NCBI RefSeq assembly: GCF_030227115.1
Contig: NZ_JASSUA010000001.1
Coordinates: forward strand, 1,178,001 to 1,242,000
Direction of reading: 5' to 3'
From: Marinobacter sp. SS13-12
Lineage (GTDB): Bacteria > Pseudomonadota > Gammaproteobacteria > Pseudomonadales > Oleiphilaceae
DNA length: 64,000 nt
Part shown: positions 13,965-64,000 of the stretch, piece after piece
Numbering within the stretch: the first letter of the stretch is position 1
Layout: each line of letters opens with the position of its first letter
Program-made: the position numbers and the translations under genes
The notes under the pieces: generated by a model
What the model was told of the DNA's origin: nothing
The model's database searches: none
Seen by the model: the letters and a program-made list of their open reading frames with translations, nothing else

Positions 13965-13970
13965 AATAAG

Positions 13971-14147
13971 CTTCCCGGGCTGCCGTTATCGGATGTGGCC
14001 CTTGAACCCAAAGTTCAAGGTCGGTGGCCGCTGTGACATATTAGGCTTTCCCCGTGAGGGGACGTGCTCACAATGCCCTAGAGTAGCCACCTGGGTAGTG
14101 CGCATCGGCTCGAGGACGAATCCGACCAGCGAACAGCCCAGGAAGTT
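13971..14147 (-). ncRNA. ssrS: 6S RNA
   Basis: About 177 nt on the minus strand between zapA and ygfA, the classical ssrS position. The 5' end (ACTTCCTGGGCTGTTCG...) pairs with the 3' end (...GGCAGCCCGGGAAG) to form the closing stem. The interior holds the hallmark hairpin CCTTGAACTTTGGGTTCAAGG, near-identical to the CCTTGAACCAAGGGTTCAAGG hairpin of E. coli 6S RNA, plus a GAGCCGAT segment. 6S RNA mimics an open promoter and sequesters sigma-70 RNA polymerase in stationary phase. Ends are inferred from the promoter and the closing stem. Confidence 0.95.
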
Positions 14148-44824: not shown

Positions 44825-45994
44825 TCAATGGATCCGGCAGTCACTCTCGGGCCTGTCGTAGCCCAGGGTGTCCAGTTCGGAATCGGGATGCAGGAAGCCT
44901 TCCAGTGGTGGCGTCGCAACCAGTCCCTGGGGGTGAACCAGTGGGATTGGCTGGCGGAGTTGCCCGTTCCAGGGGCGGTAAGTCAGCTTGCGGCCTTTGA
45001 AGGCGGCGAGCTGGAAATCATCGGAAAACAGATACTCGCGAATGTTCGAGTGGCCTGCCTTACCGAGCCCGGTAACGGTGGTTCCGATGGAGCGTATGGC
45101 GGCCCAGGCGGCATAGTCTTCGCTGTTCATTTCGCGCCCGGCCAGTTCCCGGAAGCGGTTCTGCAGCTGTGCCGCACCCCATGCCTCAACCACCCGGTGC
45201 CAGGCTTCCGGCCCCATGCCCTGGGTGCCAACCACCGGTCGCGGGAGCCAGGTGTTGAAGGGCACGTATTCCCCGAAATCACCACGCACGTCTGCGACTA
45301 CCACGGCATCGTAACCACTCGCCTGGGTGAAGGTGGGCAATTCTTTGGAGGCCGTGCGGCGCAAGTCCGAATCGAAAGTCCAGGGTTTGTCAGCAATGAT
45401 GTCCAGGCCGAACCGTTTGCTGGCGCGGCGGAAGGCATCTGCCCAGGCTTTGTCTTGTTCGGTTGGGCCGGTAATAAGGAACACGTCCTTCCAGCGCCGC
45501 ATGTTCAGCCACTGGGCAAGGGCATCGGTCAGCATGGCGTAGGAGGGAATGGTATGCAGGAGGTTGGGCCGGCATTCACTGATCCGCAGGCTATCGTCCG
45601 AGGCACCGGCGTTGAACAGTAACGCTTTACCGTCAGCCTTTCTGGCCATCGCCAGCAGTGTGTCTGCGGGAACGCGGGTCACCAGCAGATCAATGCCGCT
45701 CTCCAGCATGCCATCGAGGGCGGCCAGGGCGCCCTCTTCATCGCTGGCGATGACGGACTCAACAGCATACATCTGGTCCAGAAACTTGCCGGTGGCATTG
45801 TTGTCGGCAATCCCCAGCTCGGCCCCGCGCAGGCCGGCGTCTTCCGGTTCCGGAGTGACATTGGAAAGGACCGGGCCCTGGTCGGGCACCCATTGGATGT
45901 AGCCAATTCTGACTTCAACAGCTATCGCTGCAGCCGGAGCCAGTAGCCAGCTACAGAGCACTGACGTAACCAATAGCCTGCCTTTTGAAATCAT
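44825..45994 (-). CDS. pedA1: Periplasmic binding-protein-like component of the PQQ alcohol dehydrogenase locus (PedA1-like)
   Basis: 389 residues from the ATG at 45992–45994 (GAAGG upstream); an ATG at 46016–46018 would add eight residues. A signal peptide (about 1–25, ending AIA) precedes a type I periplasmic-binding fold: VRIGYIQWVPDQGPVLSN, GAELGIADNNATGKFLDQ, IDLLVTRVPADTLLAMA, VFLITGPTEQDKAWADAFRRA. This matches the branched-chain-amino-acid-binding-like proteins annotated with PQQ-dependent alcohol dehydrogenase ABC systems. It heads the leftward unit pedA1–A2–B–C and is divergent from the cytochrome gene. Confidence 0.84.
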   Translation of the reverse strand: MISKGRLLVTSVLCSWLLAPAAAIAVEVRIGYIQWVPDQGPVLSNVTPEPEDAGLRGAELGIADNNATGKFLDQMYAVESVIASDEEGALAALDGMLESGIDLLVTRVPADTLLAMARKADGKALLFNAGASDDSLRISECRPNLLHTIPSYAMLTDALAQWLNMRRWKDVFLITGPTEQDKAWADAFRRASKRFGLDIIADKPWTFDSDLRRTASKELPTFTQASGYDAVVVADVRGDFGEYVPFNTWLPRPVVGTQGMGPEAWHRVVEAWGAAQLQNRFRELAGREMNSEDYAAWAAIRSIGTTVTGLGKAGHSNIREYLFSDDFQLAAFKGRKLTYRPWNGQLRQPIPLVHPQGLVATPPLEGFLHPDSELDTLGYDRPESDCRIH

Positions 45995-46098
45995 GGTTGC
46001 GGCCTTCTCTGTGTGCATTTTTTGTTCTCGCAACCAGCTTAGAGAAGGGAGGTAGCCGTCGAAATATTCAGAAAGTAGGAAACTGGCGGTACTAAAGA

Positions 46099-46148
46099 AC
46101 TATTCTTGGGGCCCACCTGCGGTAATCCCTCCTCAACCTACTACCAAG
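46099..46148. promoter_or_regulatory. Divergent promoter region with shared locus motifs
   Basis: Between pedA1 (leftward) and the cytochrome gene (rightward) lie ACTATTCTTG at 46099–46108, identical to 39607–39616, and TACTACCAAG at 46139–46148, identical to 47743–47752 upstream of the PQQ dehydrogenase. The flanking sequence differs, so these are conserved short sites rather than long repeats. A role as response-regulator sites is inferred. Confidence 0.5.
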
Positions 46149-46278
46149 GAACTAGAACGAAGACGCCAAAGTGGCATTCTGATCACTATGGCGTGTTCCT
46201 AGACTTGGATGAGGTAGCTGGCAATGCATTCACAACAAACAGCCAGCGCACGGGGATTCAAAACAGAGGTATAACAAC

Positions 46279-46707
46279 ATGTCAGTTTCTTTTTCACTAA
46301 AGGCCATGGTTACCGCCGGTTTACTGGCGACAGCAGGTTTGGCCATGTCTCACGGGGATGTCACACCCCAGGAAGTGGATACCGGAAGCCTGCCCGATCT
46401 GGGGAAGGAAGCCCTGACGGAAAACCCGTTTCGCGAAGGTAATGAACACGGTGACAAGCATGCTGAGGCCGTCAAGGTGGGCAAAAGCGGTTACGCAGGC
46501 AACTGCGCGGTTTGTCATGGCATTGAAGCCATGTCTGGAGGTCTGACGCCCGACCTGAGAGAGCTTTCGGAGTGGGACGATGAGTATTTTATCGGACGTG
46601 TCATGAACGGCACAGGGCGAGGCATGCCGTCGTTCAAGGATAATCTGGATCAAACCGCTATCTGGGCCATCAAGACGTACATTGAGTCAGTCCCGCCGCC
46701 CCGGTAA
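46279..46707 (+). CDS. pedF: Cytochrome c550, PedF/ExaB-like
   Basis: 142 residues. A signal peptide (about 1–24, ...TAGLAMSHG) precedes a single class I heme domain. CAVCH (about 76–80) is the heme-attachment motif, and the distal Met ligand lies in GRGMPSFKDNL (about 112–122). The length and the conserved ENPFREGNEHG stretch before the heme motif match the c550 of PQQ ethanol dehydrogenase systems. It accepts electrons from the periplasmic quinoprotein. It is the first gene of a rightward group with the MoxJ/PedG-like protein and the PQQ dehydrogenase. Confidence 0.92.
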   Translation: MSVSFSLKAMVTAGLLATAGLAMSHGDVTPQEVDTGSLPDLGKEALTENPFREGNEHGDKHAEAVKVGKSGYAGNCAVCHGIEAMSGGLTPDLRELSEWDDEYFIGRVMNGTGRGMPSFKDNLDQTAIWAIKTYIESVPPPR

Positions 46708-46757
46708 TAAGGGTGCAGGGTGCTTTTTAATGGCTGGAATTTCCGGGAGATGATTTT

Positions 46758-47690
46758 ATGAAGTCAGCATTTTACGCCTTGATGCTGGTACTGCTGCTTG
46801 TGGGCATCAGCCAGGTACAGGCTCAGCAGTCCCGCAGCCTGATTCCGGACCGAACGCTGGATATTGTTCAGGATTCCGGCTATCTGAATGTTGGCATGTA
46901 CAAGGATTTTCCGCCTTATTCCTACGAAGTGAATGGCGAGGCTCGTGGTGTGGACGCGGACCTGGGACGCCGTATTGCAGAGGGGCTGGGCGTGGAATTT
47001 CGTCCCTACTGGATTATCCCGGATGAAAGCCTGGGTGACGACCTGCGCAACCATATCTGGAAAGGGCACTATCTGGCGAAAACCCGTATAGCGGACATCA
47101 TGATGCGGGTGCCTTACGACAGCACCTTCAAGTACATGAGGGACTCCACCGGTGAAATGATCAACGAGCAGGTGGTTTTCTTTGGCCCCTACCAGCAGGA
47201 GCGCTGGCAGATTGCCTTTGACAACAGCCGACTGGACGGCGTTGAAACGGTTGCGGTGTTTCAGTATCACCCGATCGGTGTGGAGATCGACACGCTTCCT
47301 GCCACCTATCTGACGTCCGCCTTTGGTGGGCGACTGAGGAATCAGGTGCATCATTACAGGAACGTCGGAGAGGCATTCCAGGCTATGGAGCAGGAAGAGG
47401 TTGCCGGCGTGATGGGTATGCGGGCGGAAATAGAGCACCAACTGGCGGCCCATACCGGCAATGGTTTTACCAAAGCCGGGAACGGCTTCCCCGGGATGAC
47501 CAAGCAGGTGTGGGACGTGGGCCTGGCGGTTCGCCATACACATCGAGCCCTCGGATACGCCATCGCAGCGATTGTTGATGGCATGGTCAGATCCGGAGAA
47601 ATGGCAGAGCTCTACGCCAACCACGGACTCTCTTACAGCCGCCCGGGCTATTACGACGAGATTCTCGGCCCCGATGACAATGGGGAATAA
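46758..47690 (+). CDS. MoxJ/PedG-like periplasmic protein of a quinoprotein system
   Basis: 310 residues. A signal peptide (about 1–22, GISQVQAQ) leads into a type II (SBP_bac_3-like) binding fold: LDIVQDSGYLNVGMYKDFPPYSYEVNGEARGVDADLGRRIAEGLGVEF near the N-terminus and a VGLAVRHTHRALGYAIAAIVDGMVRSGEMAELYANHGL tail. MoxJ/XoxJ and PedG proteins of this type are encoded beside methanol and ethanol quinoproteins, and XoxJ is thought to help activate the dehydrogenase. It is 50 bp after the cytochrome gene and ends at an intrinsic terminator before the dehydrogenase gene. Confidence 0.85.
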   Translation: MKSAFYALMLVLLLVGISQVQAQQSRSLIPDRTLDIVQDSGYLNVGMYKDFPPYSYEVNGEARGVDADLGRRIAEGLGVEFRPYWIIPDESLGDDLRNHIWKGHYLAKTRIADIMMRVPYDSTFKYMRDSTGEMINEQVVFFGPYQQERWQIAFDNSRLDGVETVAVFQYHPIGVEIDTLPATYLTSAFGGRLRNQVHHYRNVGEAFQAMEQEEVAGVMGMRAEIEHQLAAHTGNGFTKAGNGFPGMTKQVWDVGLAVRHTHRALGYAIAAIVDGMVRSGEMAELYANHGLSYSRPGYYDEILGPDDNGE

Positions 47691-47709
47691 GGCAATACCC
47701 GCTGTTCTG

Positions 47710-47732
47710 GCCCGCCATGTGCGGGCTTTTTT
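47710..47732 (+). terminator. Rho-independent terminator after the PedG-like gene
   Basis: GCCCGC (47710–47715) and GCGGGC (47721–47726) form a stem with a 5-nt loop, followed by TTTTTT. It separates the cytochrome/PedG pair from the dehydrogenase gene, implying that the latter has its own promoter. Confidence 0.88.
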
Positions 47733-47742
47733 GTGGGGGTCT

Positions 47743-47752
47743 TACTACCAAG
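47743..47752 (+). promoter_or_regulatory. Shared promoter motif TACTACCAAG, copy 2
   Basis: TACTACCAAG is repeated exactly from 46139–46148. Here it lies about 130 bp upstream of the PQQ dehydrogenase start, just past the terminator. Confidence 0.45.
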
Positions 47753-47881
47753 TGATGAGAAAACCTGTTCGGGCGATTAATTGTTGCGATTGCGGGTGAG
47801 GCCAAGAATGGAGTTTAGAGGCGGGAACAATTCCCGGTTCGCTGCACACACTGACAACAAGAGACTTTGGAGAGCGCAACC

Positions 47882-49657
47882 ATGAGATCGAATCCGTTCG
47901 GTAAACAGTTTGCCGCCAGTGCCCTGGCGCTGGCTGTATCACTGGGGGCCCATGCGGTCACCGATGAAGATATCCTGAATGACCATAACACTGTCGATGA
48001 CATCGTAAGCTACGGTATGGGCGTTCAGGGCCAGCGTTTCAGCCCGATGACGGCCCTTAACACAGACAACGTCCAGTATCTGCAGCCGGCGTGGGCGTTC
48101 TCTTTCGGTGGCGAAAAACAGCGGGGCCAGGAGTCCCAGCCATTGATCAAGGATGGCGTCATGTATGTGACGGCGTCCTATTCACGGGCTTATGCGATTG
48201 ATGCGCGTACCGGCGAAGAAATCTGGCAATACGATGCCCGTCTTCCGGATGGCATCATGCCCTGTTGTGATGTGGTCAACCGGGGTGGTGCTCTTTACGA
48301 CGACCTGTTTATTTTCGGCACCCTGGACGCCAAGCTCGTGGCCCTGAACAAGGACACCGGCAAGGTAGTCTGGATCAAGAAAGTTGCGGATTATCAGGCC
48401 GGTTACTCAATGACGGCAGCCCCGCTGATTGTCAAAGGCAAGCTGATTACCGGTGTGTCCGGTGGCGAATTCGGCATTGTCGGCAAGGTTGAGGCCCGCG
48501 ACCCGAACACGGGTGACCTGCTGTGGATGCGTCCGACTGTGGAAGGTCACATGGGTTACGTCTATAAAGACGGCAAGGAGATCGAAAACGGTATCTCCGG
48601 TGGCGAAGCCGGCAAGACCTGGCCTGGCGACATGTGGAAGACCGGTGGCGCGGCAACCTGGCTCGGCGGCACCTATGACCCGGATACCGACTCGCTGTTC
48701 TTCGGCACCGGTAACCCGGCCCCGTGGAACTCTCACCTGCGTCCGGGTGACAACCTGTTTTCATCCTCACGCGTCGCCATTGATCCGGATGATGGCAGCA
48801 TCAAGTGGCACTTCCAGACCACACCCAACGACGGCTGGGATTACGACGGCGTCAACGAGCTGATTTCCTTTGACTACGAAGAAAACGGCAAAACCGTCAG
48901 GGCAGCCGCCACAGCGGACCGTAACGGCTTCTTCTATGTCCTGAACCGTGAGAACGGCGACTTTATCCGCGGCTTCCCGTTTGTGGACAAGATCACCTGG
49001 GCCAAAGGCCTGAATGAAGATGGCAGGCCGATCTACAATACCGAGAACGGCCGCCCGGGCAACCCGGCTGACGCCGATGGTGAGAAAGGTGAAACAGTCG
49101 TTGCCTTCCCGGCGTTCCTGGGTGGCAAGAACTGGATGCCCATGGCCTACAGCCAGGACACCGGCCTGTTCTACGTGCCATCCAATGAATGGTCCATGGA
49201 TATCTGGAACGAGCCGGTTTCCTACAAGAAAGGTGCTGCCTATCTGGGTGCCGGCTTCACCATCAAGCCCGCAAACGATGAATTCATCGGTGTCCTGCGT
49301 GCCGTAGACCCGAAAACCGGTGAGGAAGTCTGGCGCTATAACAACCCGGCCCCGCTCTGGGGTGGAGTACTGGCCACAGCAGGCAACCTGGTCTTTACCG
49401 GCACGCCGGAAGGCTACCTGAAGGCGTTCGACGCCAAGACGGGTGAAGAGCTCTACAAGTTCAATACCGGTACCGGTGTTGTTGGCACACCCGTAACCTG
49501 GGAAATGGACGGCGACCAGTATGTGTCCATTTCCACTGGCTGGGGCGGTGCGGTTCCGCTCTGGGGTGGCGAAGTGGCCAGGGTGGTCAAGGACTTCAAC
49601 CAGGGCGGCACAGTCTGGACCTTCAAGCTGCCGAGTGACCGGGTTGCCGCCAACTGA
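47882..49657 (+). CDS. PQQ-dependent alcohol dehydrogenase, lanthanide-type active site
   Basis: 591 residues from the ATG at 47882 (GGAGAG upstream). A signal peptide (about 1–25, ending GAHA) precedes an eight-bladed quinoprotein propeller. The vicinal disulfide is MPCCDVV (Cys128–Cys129). Metal ligands appear as SGGEFGI (Glu196), GTGNPAPWN (Asn278) and the catalytic Asp of [11 protein letters not shown] (Asp320). Asp322, two residues on, is the extra acidic residue that marks lanthanide enzymes (XoxF, PedH); Ca enzymes such as MxaF have Ala there. The length suits PedH/XoxF better than the longer ExaA. It oxidises alcohols in the periplasm, passing electrons to the adjacent cytochrome. No pqq synthesis genes lie in the window. 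Confidence 0.93.
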
Positions 49658-49741: not shown

Positions 49742-50527
49742 TCAGGCTGCCTGATGGCGGGCTGTCTGGGCAACCGAGTCATTGATGTCTTCGAACAGTT
49801 TGCTGTTGACCTGGCCGATGGGCAGGTCATAGGTAATGGTCGCACCAAATGCTTCGGGGTCGTGCGGGTCGTGACGAACCTTGTCAAAGACCAGTAACCG
49901 GGTTCCCAGATAGAAGCCTTCTTTCAGGTCATGGGTGACCATGAAAATGGTGGTACCCGTTTCCTGCCACAGCTTCAGCAGCAGATCGTGCATATCCTTG
50001 CGAATACCCGGGTCCAGGGCACCGAACGGCTCATCCAGCAACAGTACACGCGGACGCATGATCAGGGACTGGGCGATGGCCAGGCGCTGTTGCATGCCGC
50101 CTGAAAGCTCATGGGGCCATTTGTCGGCCGAGGCTTCCAGGCCAACCGATGTCAGCATCGCGTCCACCTTCTCCAGAGCTGTGCGCCGGGCGCGGCCAAA
50201 CAGTTTGCCGAGCCAGGGCTTCTGCTCGAGTTCCAGGCTCATCAGAACATTCTGGCGTACGGTCAGGTGCGGGAACACCGAGTAGCGCTGGAACACGATC
50301 CCCCGGTTCCGGTCGGGTTCTCCCGGAAAGGCCTCGCCGTCCAGCAGCAACTCGCCGCGGCTCGGGGCTTCCTGCCCCAGCAGCATTTTCAGGAAGGTGG
50401 ACTTACCGCACCCTGAAGCGCCAACGAGAGTACAGAATTCGCCCTGTTTCACGCTCAGGTTCAGGTTCTCCAGTACCACCAGATCGCCATACTCTTTCCA
50501 GAGATTATTTACCGTAATGAAGCTCAT
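49742..50527 (-). CDS. ABC transporter ATPase, probable guanidine (or guanidine-derived) importer
   Basis: 261 residues from the ATG at 50525–50527, whose first base overlaps the permease stop. Walker A LVGASGCGKST (about 33–43), Q-loop GIVFQRYSVFPHLT, signature ELSGGMQQRLAIAQSL, Walker B VLLLDEPFGALDP and the switch His in VTHDLKE are all intact. It is of the NitT/TauT type. The permease–ATPase transcript begins with a guanidine-I riboswitch, which points to guanidine as the signal and probable cargo. No binding protein lies beside it; a suitable one is at 60419–61486. Confidence 0.87.
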   Translation of the reverse strand: MSFITVNNLWKEYGDLVVLENLNLSVKQGEFCTLVGASGCGKSTFLKMLLGQEAPSRGELLLDGEAFPGEPDRNRGIVFQRYSVFPHLTVRQNVLMSLELEQKPWLGKLFGRARRTALEKVDAMLTSVGLEASADKWPHELSGGMQQRLAIAQSLIMRPRVLLLDEPFGALDPGIRKDMHDLLLKLWQETGTTIFMVTHDLKEGFYLGTRLLVFDKVRHDPHDPEAFGATITYDLPIGQVNSKLFEDINDSVAQTARHQAA

Positions 50528-51342
50528 CAGTGGCCTCCTGCGTTGTACCATGGGAACAGCCTGCGGTTGGCAAGTCGCAGACACTGATCGATGACAATGG
50601 CAAGAATGGTGATCCAGATGACATAGGGCAGAATCACGTCCATGGCGAGATATCGGCGAACCAGAAAGATGCGATAGCCCAGGCCTTCGGTGGAGGCGAT
50701 GGCTTCTGCGGCAATCAGGAACAACCAGGCCGGGCCCAGGCTCAGACGCACGGAGTCGATCAGGCGTGGCAGAACCTGGGGCAACACCATGCGGGTAATG
50801 ACCTGCCAGGAGTTGGCACCGAGGGTCTGGATCTTGATCAGTTGCTCGCCGGGAAGTTCCCGCACCCGCTGTGCCACATCCCGCATCATGATGGGTGCTG
50901 TGCCGATAACGATCAGCATGACCTTGGAGAGTTCTCCAAGGCCGAATACGATAAACAGGATAGGCAGTATCGCCAGGGGCGGGACCATGGAAAGCGCTGA
51001 CACCAGTGGTGCGAGGTTTGCTCTTATCAGCGGCAGGGCGCCATTAAGAACGCCCACCACCAATGCCAGAGAAGCGGCAATAGCAACCCCGATTCCCAAA
51101 CGTTGCAGGCTGGCGGTGGTGTCCTGCCACATCAGGTAGTCACCGCTGCGCCGGTCTTCCTGAAAGGCCATGCGGTCCACTGCGGCGGTCATCTGTTGCA
51201 GACCGGGCAACAGTTTGTCGTTGGGGTTCTCCGCCAAGCGCTCCTGGGAGGCAAGGCTGTAGATCAACATGATCAACAGGAAGGGAAGCAGGCCAAGCAG
51301 AGTGGCTGAAACACGCCCTGGGTGTCGGTTGATCATTCGCAT
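50527..51342 (-). CDS. ABC transporter permease, probable guanidine importer
   Basis: 271 residues, with six transmembrane helices and a NitT/TauT-type coupling loop (GEQLIKIQTLGANSWQVITRMVLPQVLPRLIDSVRLSLGPAW, about 165–206). An unusual soluble stretch (SQERLAENPNDKLLPGLQQMTAAVDRMAFQEDRRSGDYLMWQD, about 33–75) follows the first helix, as in permeases found in urea/guanidine carboxylase regions. The start has GGAG in a CCAGAGGAG sequence that is complementary to part of the riboswitch upstream. It is the first gene of a two-gene transcript with the ATPase. Confidence 0.87.
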   Translation of the reverse strand: MRMINRHPGRVSATLLGLLPFLLIMLIYSLASQERLAENPNDKLLPGLQQMTAAVDRMAFQEDRRSGDYLMWQDTTASLQRLGIGVAIAASLALVVGVLNGALPLIRANLAPLVSALSMVPPLAILPILFIVFGLGELSKVMLIVIGTAPIMMRDVAQRVRELPGEQLIKIQTLGANSWQVITRMVLPQVLPRLIDSVRLSLGPAWLFLIAAEAIASTEGLGYRIFLVRRYLAMDVILPYVIWITILAIVIDQCLRLANRRLFPWYNAGGH

Positions 51343-51406
51343 AGGCTATCTCCTCTGGTCACACAACACGGCACGTTCATCGCGGGCAACAGCCTCCCTT
51401 GCGATT

Positions 51407-51519
51407 CAGTCTCCCGGGCTTTTGTCCCGCCGTGTAACCTCCCAGAGGTCGGTAACTCTCGGACCAGCCATCCGGGCTGATGATGGTCATCTGCCCGGAC
51501 CGGAACCCTAGTCACCCAT
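51407..51519 (-). promoter_or_regulatory. Guanidine-I (ykkC) riboswitch
   Basis: Read on the minus strand, the leader holds the conserved ykkC blocks in order: GACTAGGGTTCCGG, a GGGC/GCCC hairpin, TGGTCCGAGAGTTACC, the ACCTC/GAGGT hairpin, ACGG and GGGACAAAAGCCCGGGAGAC. All the highly conserved guanidine-I nucleotides I can recall are present. It lies 65 nt before the permease ATG. Downstream there is no U-tract; instead CCUCUGG inside the aptamer (51448–51442) is complementary to CCAGAGG (51358–51352) overlapping the Shine–Dalgarno, so translational control is predicted. Confidence 0.93.
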
Positions 51520-51597
51520 TGTGTTCATTATCTTCGCCGCACGCCTCGCGGTGTTGTTGTGAACGGATCCTGGTATTAAACCGTCTGTCCAGAGTAG

Positions 51598-51613
51598 TGC
51601 AGGTGGCGTGCCA
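51598..51613 (-). promoter_or_regulatory. Sigma-54 promoter of the riboswitch–transporter unit
   Basis: On the minus strand TGGCACGCCACCTGCA matches the -24/-12 consensus TGGCACG-N4-TTGCA at all but one consensus position, with the exact GG-N10-GC spacing. The predicted start near 51587 precedes the aptamer by about 70 nt. Confidence 0.75.
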
Positions 51614-51667
51614 GCTTCGTGAAACGGGAATAACCAGCGCTTTCAGGCCGATTACCGGCAAAAATTT

Positions 51668-51682
51668 GCGCTATAGCGGTGC
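51668..51682. promoter_or_regulatory. NtrC-like enhancer site
   Basis: GCGCTATAGCGGTGC fits the NtrC pattern GCAC-N7-GTGC with one mismatch. Its centre is about 88 bp upstream of the predicted sigma-54 start. A weaker half-site (GGTGCAC) lies 30 bp further upstream, three helical turns away. Confidence 0.6.
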
Positions 51683-51703
51683 GTGGCGGTTTCGGGTGCA
51701 CTG

Positions 51704-60418: not shown

Positions 60419-61486
60419 CTAGATCTCGTTGTCAGCAGCCATCTGCATGAAGCTATCATTAAACCGCAGCTTCACATTACTCGAGTCGCCCATGATGGAA
60501 CCGTCCGGAAACTCGATACCAACAAAGTCCGGGCTCATGGCACCCTGGCCCAGCAGGCCCTTGTCGAACGAGAACTGGCGAACACTGTCCATCGCCTCAC
60601 GGGCTTCGCCGCTACGGATAAACTCGACCGAATTCTCCGGCTTCCAGAACATCTTCATGCCAGCCAGCTGAGCTTCATAACCGGCCTGATCGGTGCCTGA
60701 AATCTCACCGAGGAACGCCCGAGCTTCCTGACCCTCCTCGGAATCGGATGCCAGGATACTCATGGTCTCGTACCAGGCACCGACCAACGCCTTGCCCAGT
60801 TTCGGATTGTCTTCCAGAGTCTCGGTGTTCACCAGTGTCAGATCCTTGATGTGGCCCGGAATCTGGCTGGAATCAAACAGCGGCGTCGCGCCGGGGTAGT
60901 TGGTTACTTCCGTCAGCAGCGGGTTCCAGGTTGCGACGTGGCGAACGTCGTCGGTCTGGAATGCGGATACCAGGTCAGCATCGGAAATGTTCACCACACT
61001 GATGTCACGCTCTTCCAGCCCAACAGTGTTCAGGGCGCGGACCAACAGATAATGGGAAACGGACAGCTCCACCAGGTGCACGGTTTCGCCTTCCAGCTCT
61101 TCAATGGACGTGGCGTCCTTGGAGACAAGGCCATCGTTGGCATTGGAGTAGTCACCTACGATCAGGGCTGTGGTATCTATACCCGAGGCTGCCGGAATCG
61201 ACAGTCCGTCCATGCTGGTCGCCACCACGCCGTCAAACTGGCCGGCGGTGAACTGGTTGATGGATTCGATGTAGTCGTTGACCTGCACGATGTCCACCTC
61301 GATATCGTACTTGTCCGCCCACTTTTCCATGATTCCGTAGTCCTCGGCGTACTGCCAGGGCACCCAGCCGGCGTAGATGGTCCAGGCGATGCTGAAGGAA
61401 TCTTTTTCTTCGGCGAGTGCGCCCATGGACAGGGACGCGGTCAGCAGGCCGGCCGCCAGACGTTTGTTCAGGTCAGATGTTTTCAT
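60419..61486 (-). CDS. ABC transporter substrate-binding protein, urea/guanidine carboxylase region
   Basis: 355 residues. A signal peptide (about 1–25, ...SLSMGALA) precedes a NitT/TauT-type binding fold: FSIAWTIYAGWVPWQYAEDYGIMEKWADKY, VQVNDYIESINQFTAGQFDGVVATSMDGL and VSHYLLVRALNTVGLEERDISVVNISDADLVSAF. It corresponds to the periplasmic binding protein family found only beside urea carboxylase genes. It is 64 bp downstream of the carboxylase and ends at a strong terminator. No permease or ATPase follows, so it probably serves the riboswitch-controlled pair at 49742–51342. Confidence 0.88.
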   Translation of the reverse strand: MKTSDLNKRLAAGLLTASLSMGALAEEKDSFSIAWTIYAGWVPWQYAEDYGIMEKWADKYDIEVDIVQVNDYIESINQFTAGQFDGVVATSMDGLSIPAASGIDTTALIVGDYSNANDGLVSKDATSIEELEGETVHLVELSVSHYLLVRALNTVGLEERDISVVNISDADLVSAFQTDDVRHVATWNPLLTEVTNYPGATPLFDSSQIPGHIKDLTLVNTETLEDNPKLGKALVGAWYETMSILASDSEEGQEARAFLGEISGTDQAGYEAQLAGMKMFWKPENSVEFIRSGEAREAMDSVRQFSFDKGLLGQGAMSPDFVGIEFPDGSIMGDSSNVKLRFNDSFMQMAADNEI

Positions 61487-61550: not shown

Positions 61551-64000
61551 TTACTCGGTAATTTCTTCCACGATTACCACTGGCGTTCCCGGTGAGACCG
61601 CCTGGCCCGCTTCGCGGCGCACGTCGACCACGCGGCCGGCAACCGGGCTCAGTAGCTCAATCTCCATCTTCATGGATTCGACGACGGCCACCGGGCGCTG
61701 GGCTTCTATGGTGTCGCCCGGCTTGACCAGGCATTCCCAAAGGTTGCCAGCCACGTGGCTTTCCACTGCGTGCTGGCCGGCGGGCAGGTTGGCGATGTCG
61801 TCCTCGCCGGTGTCCTCGATGGGCGCTTCGGAACTGAAATTGATCTGGCCGGATTCGATCCAGCGCTGCAGTTCCTCATCGAACGCCTGCTTTCGTTTAT
61901 CAGTGAAGGCCTGGATCTCGTCGTTGTTTTCAGAAAGAAACCGCTCGTACTCCTTCAGGTTGAAGCGGGTTTCCTCGACCTTGATCGGGTAGTCACCGTT
62001 GGGGAAGTCCCGACGAATCTGCTGCAGCTCCTCCGCGCTGACCTCGTAGAAACGTACCTGGTCGAAAAACCGCAGCAGCCAGGGCTTGCCGGGCTCGAAG
62101 AAGTCTGTGGTGCGGTAACGGTTCCACATCTGCAGGGTGCGACCGACAAACTGGTAGCCGCCCGGGCCTTCCATGCCGTAGATGCACAGATAGGCGCCGC
62201 CAATGCCCACGGAGTTTTCCGCGGTCCAGGTGCGGGCGGGGTTGTACTTGGTGGTGACCAGCCGGTGGCGGGGGTCCAGAGGGGTGGCAACCGGGGCGCC
62301 CAGATAGACATCACCCAGGCCCATCACCAGATAGCTCGCGTCGAAGACGGTCTTTTTCACGTCGTCGATGCTGTCCAGCCCGTTGATGCGGCGGATGAAC
62401 TCCAGGTTGCTCGGGCACCAGGGGGCGTCCTTGCGCACCGACTGCATGTATTTGGCGATGGCGGTCTGGCAGGCCTCGTCGTCCCAGGACAGGGGCAGGT
62501 GCACGATGCGCGCTGGCACGTCCCATTCGGGCTGCTTTTCAAGTTCCTTTTCGGCACTGATCAGCAGGTCCAGCAAAGTGCGCTGGTTCAGTGTCTGGCT
62601 GTCGTAGTGCACCTGCAGGGAGCGGATGCCCGGTGTCAGCTCAAGAATGGCGTCGTGGTTCTGTTCCCGCAGCCACAGCATCAGGGCGTGGGCGCGGAAG
62701 CGCAGTCGAATATCCAGCTCCATGGGGCCGTACTCCACCAGCACGTAGTTGTCGCCGGCGGCCCGGTACACCACACCGGTTTCATGGTCGCTGGTGCTCA
62801 GCGAATCCAGAATCGGGGTTTCCGGTTTGATAGGCGTGATACGGGCGGTGGCAGGCGTCAGCGTTGCAACGGACTCGTCCATCGCTTCCCTTAGGGCAAC
62901 GGCCTGGTCCTGGCTGACCGGCACAAACCGCACCTTGTCGCCGGCCTTGAGCTGGCCCAGTTTCCACAGATCGGCGCTGATCACGGTGACCGGGCAGACG
63001 AAGCCACCCAGGCTGGGGCCGTCGGGCCCGAGAATCACCGGCATGTCGCCGGTGAAATCCACGGTGCCCACGGCGTAGGCGTTATCGTGAATGTTGGAGG
63101 GATGCATACCGGCTTCGCCACCGTCGCTGCGTGCCCACTCTGGTTTCGGGCCGATCAGGCGAACGCCGGTGCGGCTGGAGTTGTAGTGGATTTCCCAGTC
63201 GCTGCTGAAAAAGGTGTCGATGTCCTGGCCGGTGAAATAGTCCGGCGCACCGTGGGGGCCATAGGTCACGTGGAGTTTCCAGGTTTTGCCGATGGTCGGT
63301 TTCAGCTCGTTGGGCAGGGTAGTGGCAGCAACCGGCTTGTTGTCGCTCAACGCCAGCACATCCCCGGCCCGCAGGGCCCGGCCACAGTGACCGCCAAACT
63401 GTCCCAGGGTAAATGTACTGCAGGAGGTGAGGTATTCCGGGCAATCCAGGCCGCCACGGAATAGCACATAGGCCCGTGCACCATCGCCGGTGGTGGCTCC
63501 GAGTTTCAGGGTGGAGCCCGCGGGCACGTCAATCACCTGCCAGAAACCGACCGGCTCATCGTTCAGGGTGGCGTCCAGTGGCGCGCCGGCAAGCGCAATC
63601 TGGGTGGCCCGGTTAAAGCTGAGCACCGGCCCCTTGAGGGTGATTTCCAGGCCCGGCGCTTTTTCCGGGTTGCCCAGCAGGCGGTTACCGAGCCGGAACG
63701 AGTAGCTGTCGAAAGGGCCGGATGGCGGCACACCGACTTCCCAGTAGCCGATCCGTCCGGGGTAATCCTGGATAGTCGTCATTGTGCCGCCACTGAGCAC
63801 GTCCACGGTGGCCGGTCGGTAGTCGAATTCATTCAGGGTGCGAGTGAACAGGCGGCCTTCCACAAAACGTGGGTCATCCAGCACCTGGCGCACGTACTTG
63901 AGGTTGGTTTCAATGCCATACAGCCGACTGTCATCCAGGGCCTGCATCAACCGCTTGCGGGCCGCCTCGCGGTCCTGCTCGTGCACAATGACCTTGGCCA
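61551..64000 (-). CDS. Urea/guanidine carboxylase, C-terminal ~816 residues (cut by window edge)
   Basis: The frame is open to the right edge; the upstream in-frame residues AKVIV show that it continues. Visible parts in order: the end of the biotin carboxylase domain (about the first 55 residues), the AHS2/KipA-like half of the carboxyltransferase (TVDVLSGGTMTTIQDYPGR...GVPPSGPFDSYSFRLGN), the AHS1/KipI-like half (VEYGPMELDIRLRFRAH...YNPARTWTAENSVGIGG) and the biotinyl domain with VESMKME near the end. The full enzyme is ~1200 residues. It carboxylates urea or guanidine with ATP and bicarbonate. The guanidine riboswitch nearby favours guanidine carboxylase. Start and N-terminus lie outside the window. 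Confidence 0.93.
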   Translation of the reverse strand, partial: AKVIVHEQDREAARKRLMQALDDSRLYGIETNLKYVRQVLDDPRFVEGRLFTRTLNEFDYRPATVDVLSGGTMTTIQDYPGRIGYWEVGVPPSGPFDSYSFRLGNRLLGNPEKAPGLEITLKGPVLSFNRATQIALAGAPLDATLNDEPVGFWQVIDVPAGSTLKLGATTGDGARAYVLFRGGLDCPEYLTSCSTFTLGQFGGHCGRALRAGDVLALSDNKPVAATTLPNELKPTIGKTWKLHVTYGPHGAPDYFTGQDIDTFFSSDWEIHYNSSRTGVRLIGPKPEWARSDGGEAGMHPSNIHDNAYAVGTVDFTGDMPVILGPDGPSLGGFVCPVTVISADLWKLGQLKAGDKVRFVPVSQDQAVALREAMDESVATLTPATARITPIKPETPILDSLSTSDHETGVVYRAAGDNYVLVEYGPMELDIRLRFRAHALMLWLREQNHDAILELTPGIRSLQVHYDSQTLNQRTLLDLLISAEKELEKQPEWDVPARIVHLPLSWDDEACQTAIAKYMQSVRKDAPWCPSNLEFIRRINGLDSIDDVKKTVFDASYLVMGLGDVYLGAPVATPLDPRHRLVTTKYNPARTWTAENSVGIGGAYLCIYGMEGPGGYQFVGRTLQMWNRYRTTDFFEPGKPWLLRFFDQVRFYEVSAEELQQIRRDFPNGDYPIKVEETRFNLKEYERFLSENNDEIQAFTDKRKQAFDEELQRWIESGQINFSSEAPIEDTGEDDIANLPAGQHAVESHVAGNLWECLVKPGDTIEAQRPVAVVESMKMEIELLSPVAGRVVDVRREAGQAVSPGTPVVIVEEITE

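Follow-up and report, generated by a model that had tools for sequence, protein, structure and literature searches.

A Guanidine-I riboswitch in the leader of an ABC transporter permease gene of Marinobacter sp. SS13-12 probably switches on translation of the permease and of its coupled ATPase, using the 5' strand of its aptamer's P2 helix as an anti-Shine-Dalgarno sequence. The leader lies on the minus strand of the 64,000-nucleotide stretch that we analyzed (the window), in whose coordinates features are given. We base this reading on several computed features: the aptamer, two complements between the aptamer and the region before the start codon, their conservation, the co-change of P2 and ribosome binding site (RBS) across divergent leaders, the absence of a detected terminator and a promoter motif. 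The model that we infer from them takes in ligand binding, the direction of the switch, its effect on translation, its kinetics and a role for NtrC. When guanidine is absent, the P2 5' strand CCUCUGG would pair with the Shine-Dalgarno sequence CCAGAGG, and the aptamer junction ACACGGC with GCCGUGU just upstream of the Shine-Dalgarno region; in this unliganded fold P2 and the junction would be dismantled and ribosome initiation blocked. Guanidine bound during transcription would hold P2 and the junction in place, and the Shine-Dalgarno region would stay accessible. Transcription itself would need an enhancer-binding protein, plausibly NtrC, acting at a sigma-54-type promoter upstream.

The aptamer and its two complements

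The Rfam covariance model RF00442 (Guanidine-I) matches 51522-51409 on the minus strand over its full length (model positions 1-107 of 107) with 85.4 bits, against a gathering cut-off of 63, and an E-value of 7.9e-14. An earlier note, made from the letters of the sequence, had read a ykkC/guanidine-I leader on this strand, and the covariance search bears it out. The conserved blocks and the helices P1, P2 and P3 are present, with no non-standard pair in the part of the Rfam alignment shown. By this model the element is a Guanidine-I riboswitch, with guanidine as its predicted ligand. Sequence and alignment place hairpin P2, ACCUC-UGG-GAGGU, at 51437-51449.

CCTCTGG (51448-51442), which comprises P2 5' strand and loop and is the proposed anti-Shine-Dalgarno, and CCAGAGG (51358-51352) are exact 7-nt complements, at precisely the positions given in the earlier note. 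CCAGAGG also overlaps the permease RBS, as had been claimed: it falls within the Shine-Dalgarno region CCAGAGGAG (51350-51358), 7 nt before the ATG at 51342. A second complement, absent from that note, lies between the aptamer's conserved junction, ACACGGC (51435-51429), and GCCGTGT (51372-51366), a candidate anti-aptamer strand by its conservation and by the folds below. In an alternative register, the P2 3' strand and junction, GGTTACACGGC (51439-51429), can form 11 contiguous Watson-Crick (WC) or GU pairs with GTTGTGTGACC (51367-51357). Between the aptamer and the anti-aptamer strand lies a spacer (51379-51409) with a hairpin ATCGC...GCGAT, paired in the RNAalifold consensus and found without a T-tract by the terminator scan.

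The unconstrained minimum free energy (MFE) fold of the native leader retains P1 and includes both the CCTCTGG:CCAGAGG and the ACACGGC:GCCGTGT helices, so that the anti-aptamer strand captures the junction. Their predicted probabilities are 0.97 and 0.94, and the ensemble energy of -81.6 kcal/mol lies below the -72.6 kcal/mol obtained by folding aptamer and platform individually. The predicted helix over the Shine-Dalgarno sequence is half of a more extensive anti-aptamer structure, the other half of which takes up ACACGG. Together with the swap tests described below, the folds predict that the Shine-Dalgarno sequence is sequestered by a structure incompatible with the ligand-bound aptamer. 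Accessibility is predicted to rise only modestly: the unpaired probability of the AGGAG core goes from 0.34 to 0.49, and a rise is seen in 39 of 43 permease leaders. Because the unliganded fold is predicted to be 9 kcal/mol more stable, switching would have to be kinetic, and a co-transcriptional decision is likely. The earlier proposal that the P2 strand can sequester the RBS thus finds computational support, from the MFE fold, the RNAalifold consensus, the swap tests and a negative terminator scan.

Conservation among permease leaders

Of 163 genomes from the host's family, 70 carry Guanidine-I aptamers, the source genome among them; these yielded 117 leaders, which we grouped by first gene under names that we assigned: 43 permease, 53 cgdA-type, 20 substrate-binding-protein and 1 atzF-type. 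Wider samples (29/369 genomes of the class and 43/398 of the phylum, the family, class and phylum samples overlapping) gave 79 further usable leaders. Five of 84 wider loci held no new aptamer under the search pattern (L193, L196, L197, L202 and L217), and three matches below the cut-off were left out of the wider leader set. Start codons were picked by script, or by hand for L039, L044, L082 and L083; those of L054, L057, L116 and several wider leaders (e.g., L129, L150, L191 and L219) may be wrong and add noise.

CCTCTG is present in all 43 permease leaders and is accompanied by CAGAGG in 41, with the full 7 nt kept in 38. GCCGTG is found in 42 and GCCGTGT in 40. Where present, the two helices have mean probabilities of 0.91 (CCTCTG/CAGAGG) and 0.86 (GCCGTG), and the RNAalifold consensus of 40 distinct permease leaders includes both. 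The exceptions are L085 and L099, which lack CAGAGG (L099 has CCCGAGG), and L080, which lacks GCCGTG; L078 prefers a different fold (P 0.11). CCAGAGG is likewise kept in all 16 named records matched by a pattern that includes CCTCTGG; every one of them is a Marinobacter, and they overlap with the sampled genomes. The junction complement is not general, reaching p<=0.05 against shuffled spacers in only 15 of 83 representative leaders (in seven the motif was unlocated and scored 0). Within the permease leaders the paired bases hardly vary and show no compensatory change; evidence of co-change must therefore come from divergent leaders.

Co-change of P2 and ribosome binding site in divergent leaders

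We compared P2/RBS partners from the same leader (matched) with partners exchanged between leaders (swapped) in sets of 86, 83, 58 and 29 representatives. L161, whose start was not found, and the duplicates L168 and L170 were left out before the 86-leader test, and leaders with a start less than 35 nt from the aptamer were excluded from the three smaller sets. In the 83 representatives, the P2 and RBS duplex has a mean energy of -14.93 kcal/mol when matched and -12.19 kcal/mol when swapped, a difference reached in 0 of 20,000 permutations. The signal is confined to 58 leaders whose P2 begins GACC, AACC or GGCC (z -9.2). Folding 52 leaders with their own or exchanged platforms (eight swaps each, spacers above 95 nt excluded) gave a probability of 0.51 that the Shine-Dalgarno sequence pairs with P2 when matched and 0.17 when swapped, the matched value being higher in 46 of the 52.

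Such a signal could be an effect of composition if the pyrimidine-rich P2 5' strands of this subtype paired with any Shine-Dalgarno sequence, these being purine-rich. Swapped pairs are indeed also strong (-12.2 kcal/mol) and attain five WC pairs in 49% of cases, and the 25 leaders of the other P2 type gain no energy from being matched with the RBS that belongs to them (z -0.48). Against this, the test corrected for composition again gave 0 of 20,000 permutations, both for the set of 58 and for a set of 29 chosen for strict dissimilarity. Matched z fell below -1 in 38/58 but in only 14/29, so many leaders give no sign of the pairing. Matched WC runs of 9-14 nt occur in L149, L133, L156 and L128, and even the other P2 type has runs of at least 7 in 3 of 25 leaders, compared with 2.8% of swapped pairs. 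The composition-corrected tests led us to set composition aside as the whole explanation, and we consider it highly improbable.

The control regions behaved variously. In the uncorrected swap test, spacer, 5' flank and P1 loop departed little or not at all from chance (z -0.17, -0.18 and -1.25). Coding positions +29..+53 gave an unexpected signal in that test (z -2.7, 77/20,000) and +4..+28 a weaker one (1137/20,000), and both fell to chance after composition correction (n=29 leaders). Of the matched pairs, 14 of 58 have a WC run of at least 7 between P2 and the RBS window, as do 5.7% of the swapped ones (187 of 3306), so a single 7-mer alone is only weakly significant. The weight of the pairing comes instead from its recurrence in permease leaders and from co-change across divergent ones. 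In that series, ACCTCTG stands opposite CAGAGG in permease leaders, CCTTTTCC opposite GGAAAAGG in most cgdA-type leaders, GACCTCCAGTTG opposite CAACTGGAGGTC in L149 and ACCTCTAAT opposite ATTAGAGGT in L128. L005, which belongs to the other P2 group, has CTCCTCC opposite GGAGGAG, and in L133 it is the 3' side of P2, not the 5' side, that pairs with the RBS. These comparisons of divergent leaders support the view that P2:RBS pairing is selected, and they suggest that it is common among them without being universal. In L169, L209 and L210, which have a different P2 type, a spacer hairpin CCCTTTT...AAAAGGG noticed by eye could hide the RBS instead.

If the P2 strand is indeed an anti-Shine-Dalgarno, its sequence would be selected to match the RBS, which would help to explain the variation of P2.

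Terminators and the mode of control

A scan for hairpins followed by a T-tract between aptamer and start found none in the 43 permease leaders, the window's own included, in agreement with the earlier observation that this leader has no terminator U-tract. Terminator-like hairpins with a T-tract are present in 44/53 cgdA-type, 0/20 substrate-binding-protein, 0/1 atzF-type and 11/79 wider leaders. Permease leaders thus look translational, and cgdA-type leaders mostly appear to combine a terminator with P2:RBS complementarity.

The source genome has a leader of the latter kind. Its second aptamer of this class, just outside the window at a distance of 15 kb upstream (L002, G000:C1:1244620-1244744; L033 6621-6745, minus strand), precedes UAAP1-, UAAP2- and urea-carboxylase-type genes (TIGR03425, TIGR03424 and TIGR02712). 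We infer by name that these correspond to the genes called cgdA/B and guanidine carboxylase in the available text of PMC12508155. Like the permease leader, L002 has a Guanidine-I aptamer whose P2, CCTTTTCC, complements the RBS, GGAAAAGG; it differs in carrying a terminator-like hairpin with T-tract as well, and so may exert control at two levels. The CCTTTTCC:GGAAAAGG core is common in cgdA-type leaders but not universal (L013, L044, L054, L057 and L116 differ). By eye, the outer pairs of these leaders do not cleanly covary, many GACC P2 strands facing GGCC. A TwoAYGGAY element matches weakly at L033 230-348 (plus strand; 35.1 bits, below the cut-off of 43).

These distributions bear on how the permease switch would act. 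According to a 2025 review, in the portion available (PMC12186494), guanidine-I is usually a transcriptional ON switch, and the terminators of cgdA-type leaders in the host's own family fit that description; the permease leader might then be an ordinary transcriptional switch, controlled by an intrinsic terminator, with an incidental match between P2 and Shine-Dalgarno sequence. Since related cgdA-type leaders carry both, P2:RBS pairing does not by itself exclude a terminator. We nevertheless set terminator-only control of permease leaders aside and judge it very unlikely, given that the scan found terminator-like structures with T-runs in none of these 43 leaders, and given the advantage of a leader's own P2:RBS match over swapped partners. 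Translation could also be repressed as we propose but have its chief effect through decay of the untranslated mRNA or its termination by Rho, so that control shows up at the mRNA level. PMC12508155, in the text seen, cites work on translational riboswitches coupled to Rho, and we consider this possible if somewhat doubtful. The reverse direction, repression of the permease upon guanidine binding, is extremely unlikely: we found no support for it, the class is described as ON in the excerpted review, and the fold that sequesters the Shine-Dalgarno sequence dismantles P2 and the junction, from which ligand binding and sequestration should be mutually exclusive. We continue to favor a translational ON switch.

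A sigma-54-type promoter

A sigma-54-type promoter, TGGCACG-N4-CTGCA, lies at 51598-51613 on the minus strand, one mismatch from the consensus TGGCACG-N4-TTGCW, in which GG and GC occupy -24 and -12. Here GG is at 51612-51611 and GC at 51600-51599, the latter 86 nt before the aptamer core, and transcription would start near 51587. When up to two mismatches are allowed, the 260 nt upstream contain a site in 43/43 permease leaders (30/43 with no more than one mismatch), 35/53 cgdA-type, 15/20 substrate-binding-protein, 1/1 atzF-type and 63/79 wider leaders; the motif was met in 27/3920 shuffles and 12/1806 downstream pieces (~0.7%). After removal of similar upstream regions, 77 of 102 retain such a site (permease 10/10, cgdA-type 5/10, substrate-binding-protein 11/16, atzF-type 1/1, wider 50/65). 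Transcription from this site probably requires an enhancer-binding protein, for which NtrC is a plausible candidate. Further upstream, a weak NtrC-like palindrome, CGCACC-N5-AGCGCA, is found at 51667-51683 (minus strand) with a loose pattern and three mismatches; that pattern, with three mismatches allowed, matches 40/43 permease leaders and 326/1960 shuffles, so single matches mean little. Among the matches listed, the open-licence literature showed no link of sigma-54 or NtrC to guanidine-I. If the arrangement is as we propose, guanidine sensing would be linked to sigma-54 control, and both nitrogen status and guanidine would govern guanidine uptake and breakdown.

Relation to known guanidine riboswitches

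One close likeness is to the leader of the guanidine operon of Vreelandella boliviensis, which has the same aptamer family with guanidine carboxylase and ABC genes. As the excerpt of PMC12508155 has it, that aptamer binds guanidine specifically (KD 44 uM) and presumably destabilizes a terminator, whereas the scan detected none in the Marinobacter permease leader, whose RBS is predicted to pair with P2. In the part seen of PMC11410670, on comammox, the class is termed a transcriptional suppressor. Guanidine-II and Guanidine-III act on translation by the accounts excerpted (both in PMC12186494, Guanidine-II also in PMC12508155), freeing the Shine-Dalgarno sequence when guanidine binds, and so share the translational logic; their aptamers are unrelated in fold, Guanidine-II having two hairpins and Guanidine-III a pseudoknot. 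No Guanidine-II match at E up to 0.1 was obtained with Rfam in 10.5 kb around the genome's second riboswitch.

The available parts of PMC7266159, PMC7736828, PMC3766115, PMC9788540 and PMC6031431 do not describe a translational guanidine-I platform. A guanidine-I switch with P2 as anti-Shine-Dalgarno was likewise not found in the open-licence literature, as excerpted, among the matches listed, a scope outside which the founding papers (Nelson 2017, Reiss 2017) fall. The riboswitch class is known; the P2 anti-Shine-Dalgarno platform would be a new variant, of which an earlier description is possible. We lean slightly toward a broader picture in which a large guanidine-I branch in Gammaproteobacteria is wholly or partly translational through P2, with some members capturing ACACGG, cgdA-type leaders acting at two levels and many members gated by sigma-54. 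Such a branch would show, in a series provided by nature, a single aptamer coupled to terminators, to translational platforms and to combinations of the two. The element alone is of moderate interest, which would grow if the two-level and sigma-54 pattern were confirmed.

Genes at the locus

The permease (50527-51342, minus strand) contains BPD_transp_1 (PF00528, 68.7 bits); its best NCBIfam match is TauC-like but under that model's cut-off. The ATPase (PF00005; 49742-50527, minus strand) has a likely ATG that shares one base with the permease stop (TGATG). The aptamer is co-oriented with and upstream of guanidine-related genes, and homologues of this pair sit behind other Guanidine-I aptamers: 10 of 11 related riboswitch loci compared have a homologous permease with 56-67% identity (L065 lacks one). 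A TIGR03427-type substrate-binding protein occurs together with permease and ATPase in eight related riboswitch loci. In the source genome the permease/ATPase pair has its own riboswitch, and the gene for this protein (putative urea ABC transporter substrate-binding protein, 495.2 bits, cut-off 333.9) is separate, at 60419-61486 on the minus strand. Urea/guanidine carboxylase and UAAP genes are also near the permease riboswitch; the 3' part of the former (TIGR02712 urea carboxylase, 1877.7 bits) occupies 61551-64000 (minus strand) and belongs to an open reading frame of 1211 aa that runs past the window end. The genes behind the aptamer are likely to serve guanidine uptake.

In other genomes, Guanidine-I aptamers of L150, L200 and L206 also stand before permease and ATPase genes, with 138-224 nt separating them from the start codon selected. 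In the window, a gene for type III glutamine synthetase (TIGR03105; 52863-54221, plus strand) is situated between the units that the two riboswitches would control. A PQQ-dependent alcohol dehydrogenase (TIGR03075) and its ABC substrate-binding protein (TIGR03863), at 44825-49657, adjoin the transporter genes, and a 6S RNA gene (95.9 bits) is located at 13968-14147 on the minus strand.
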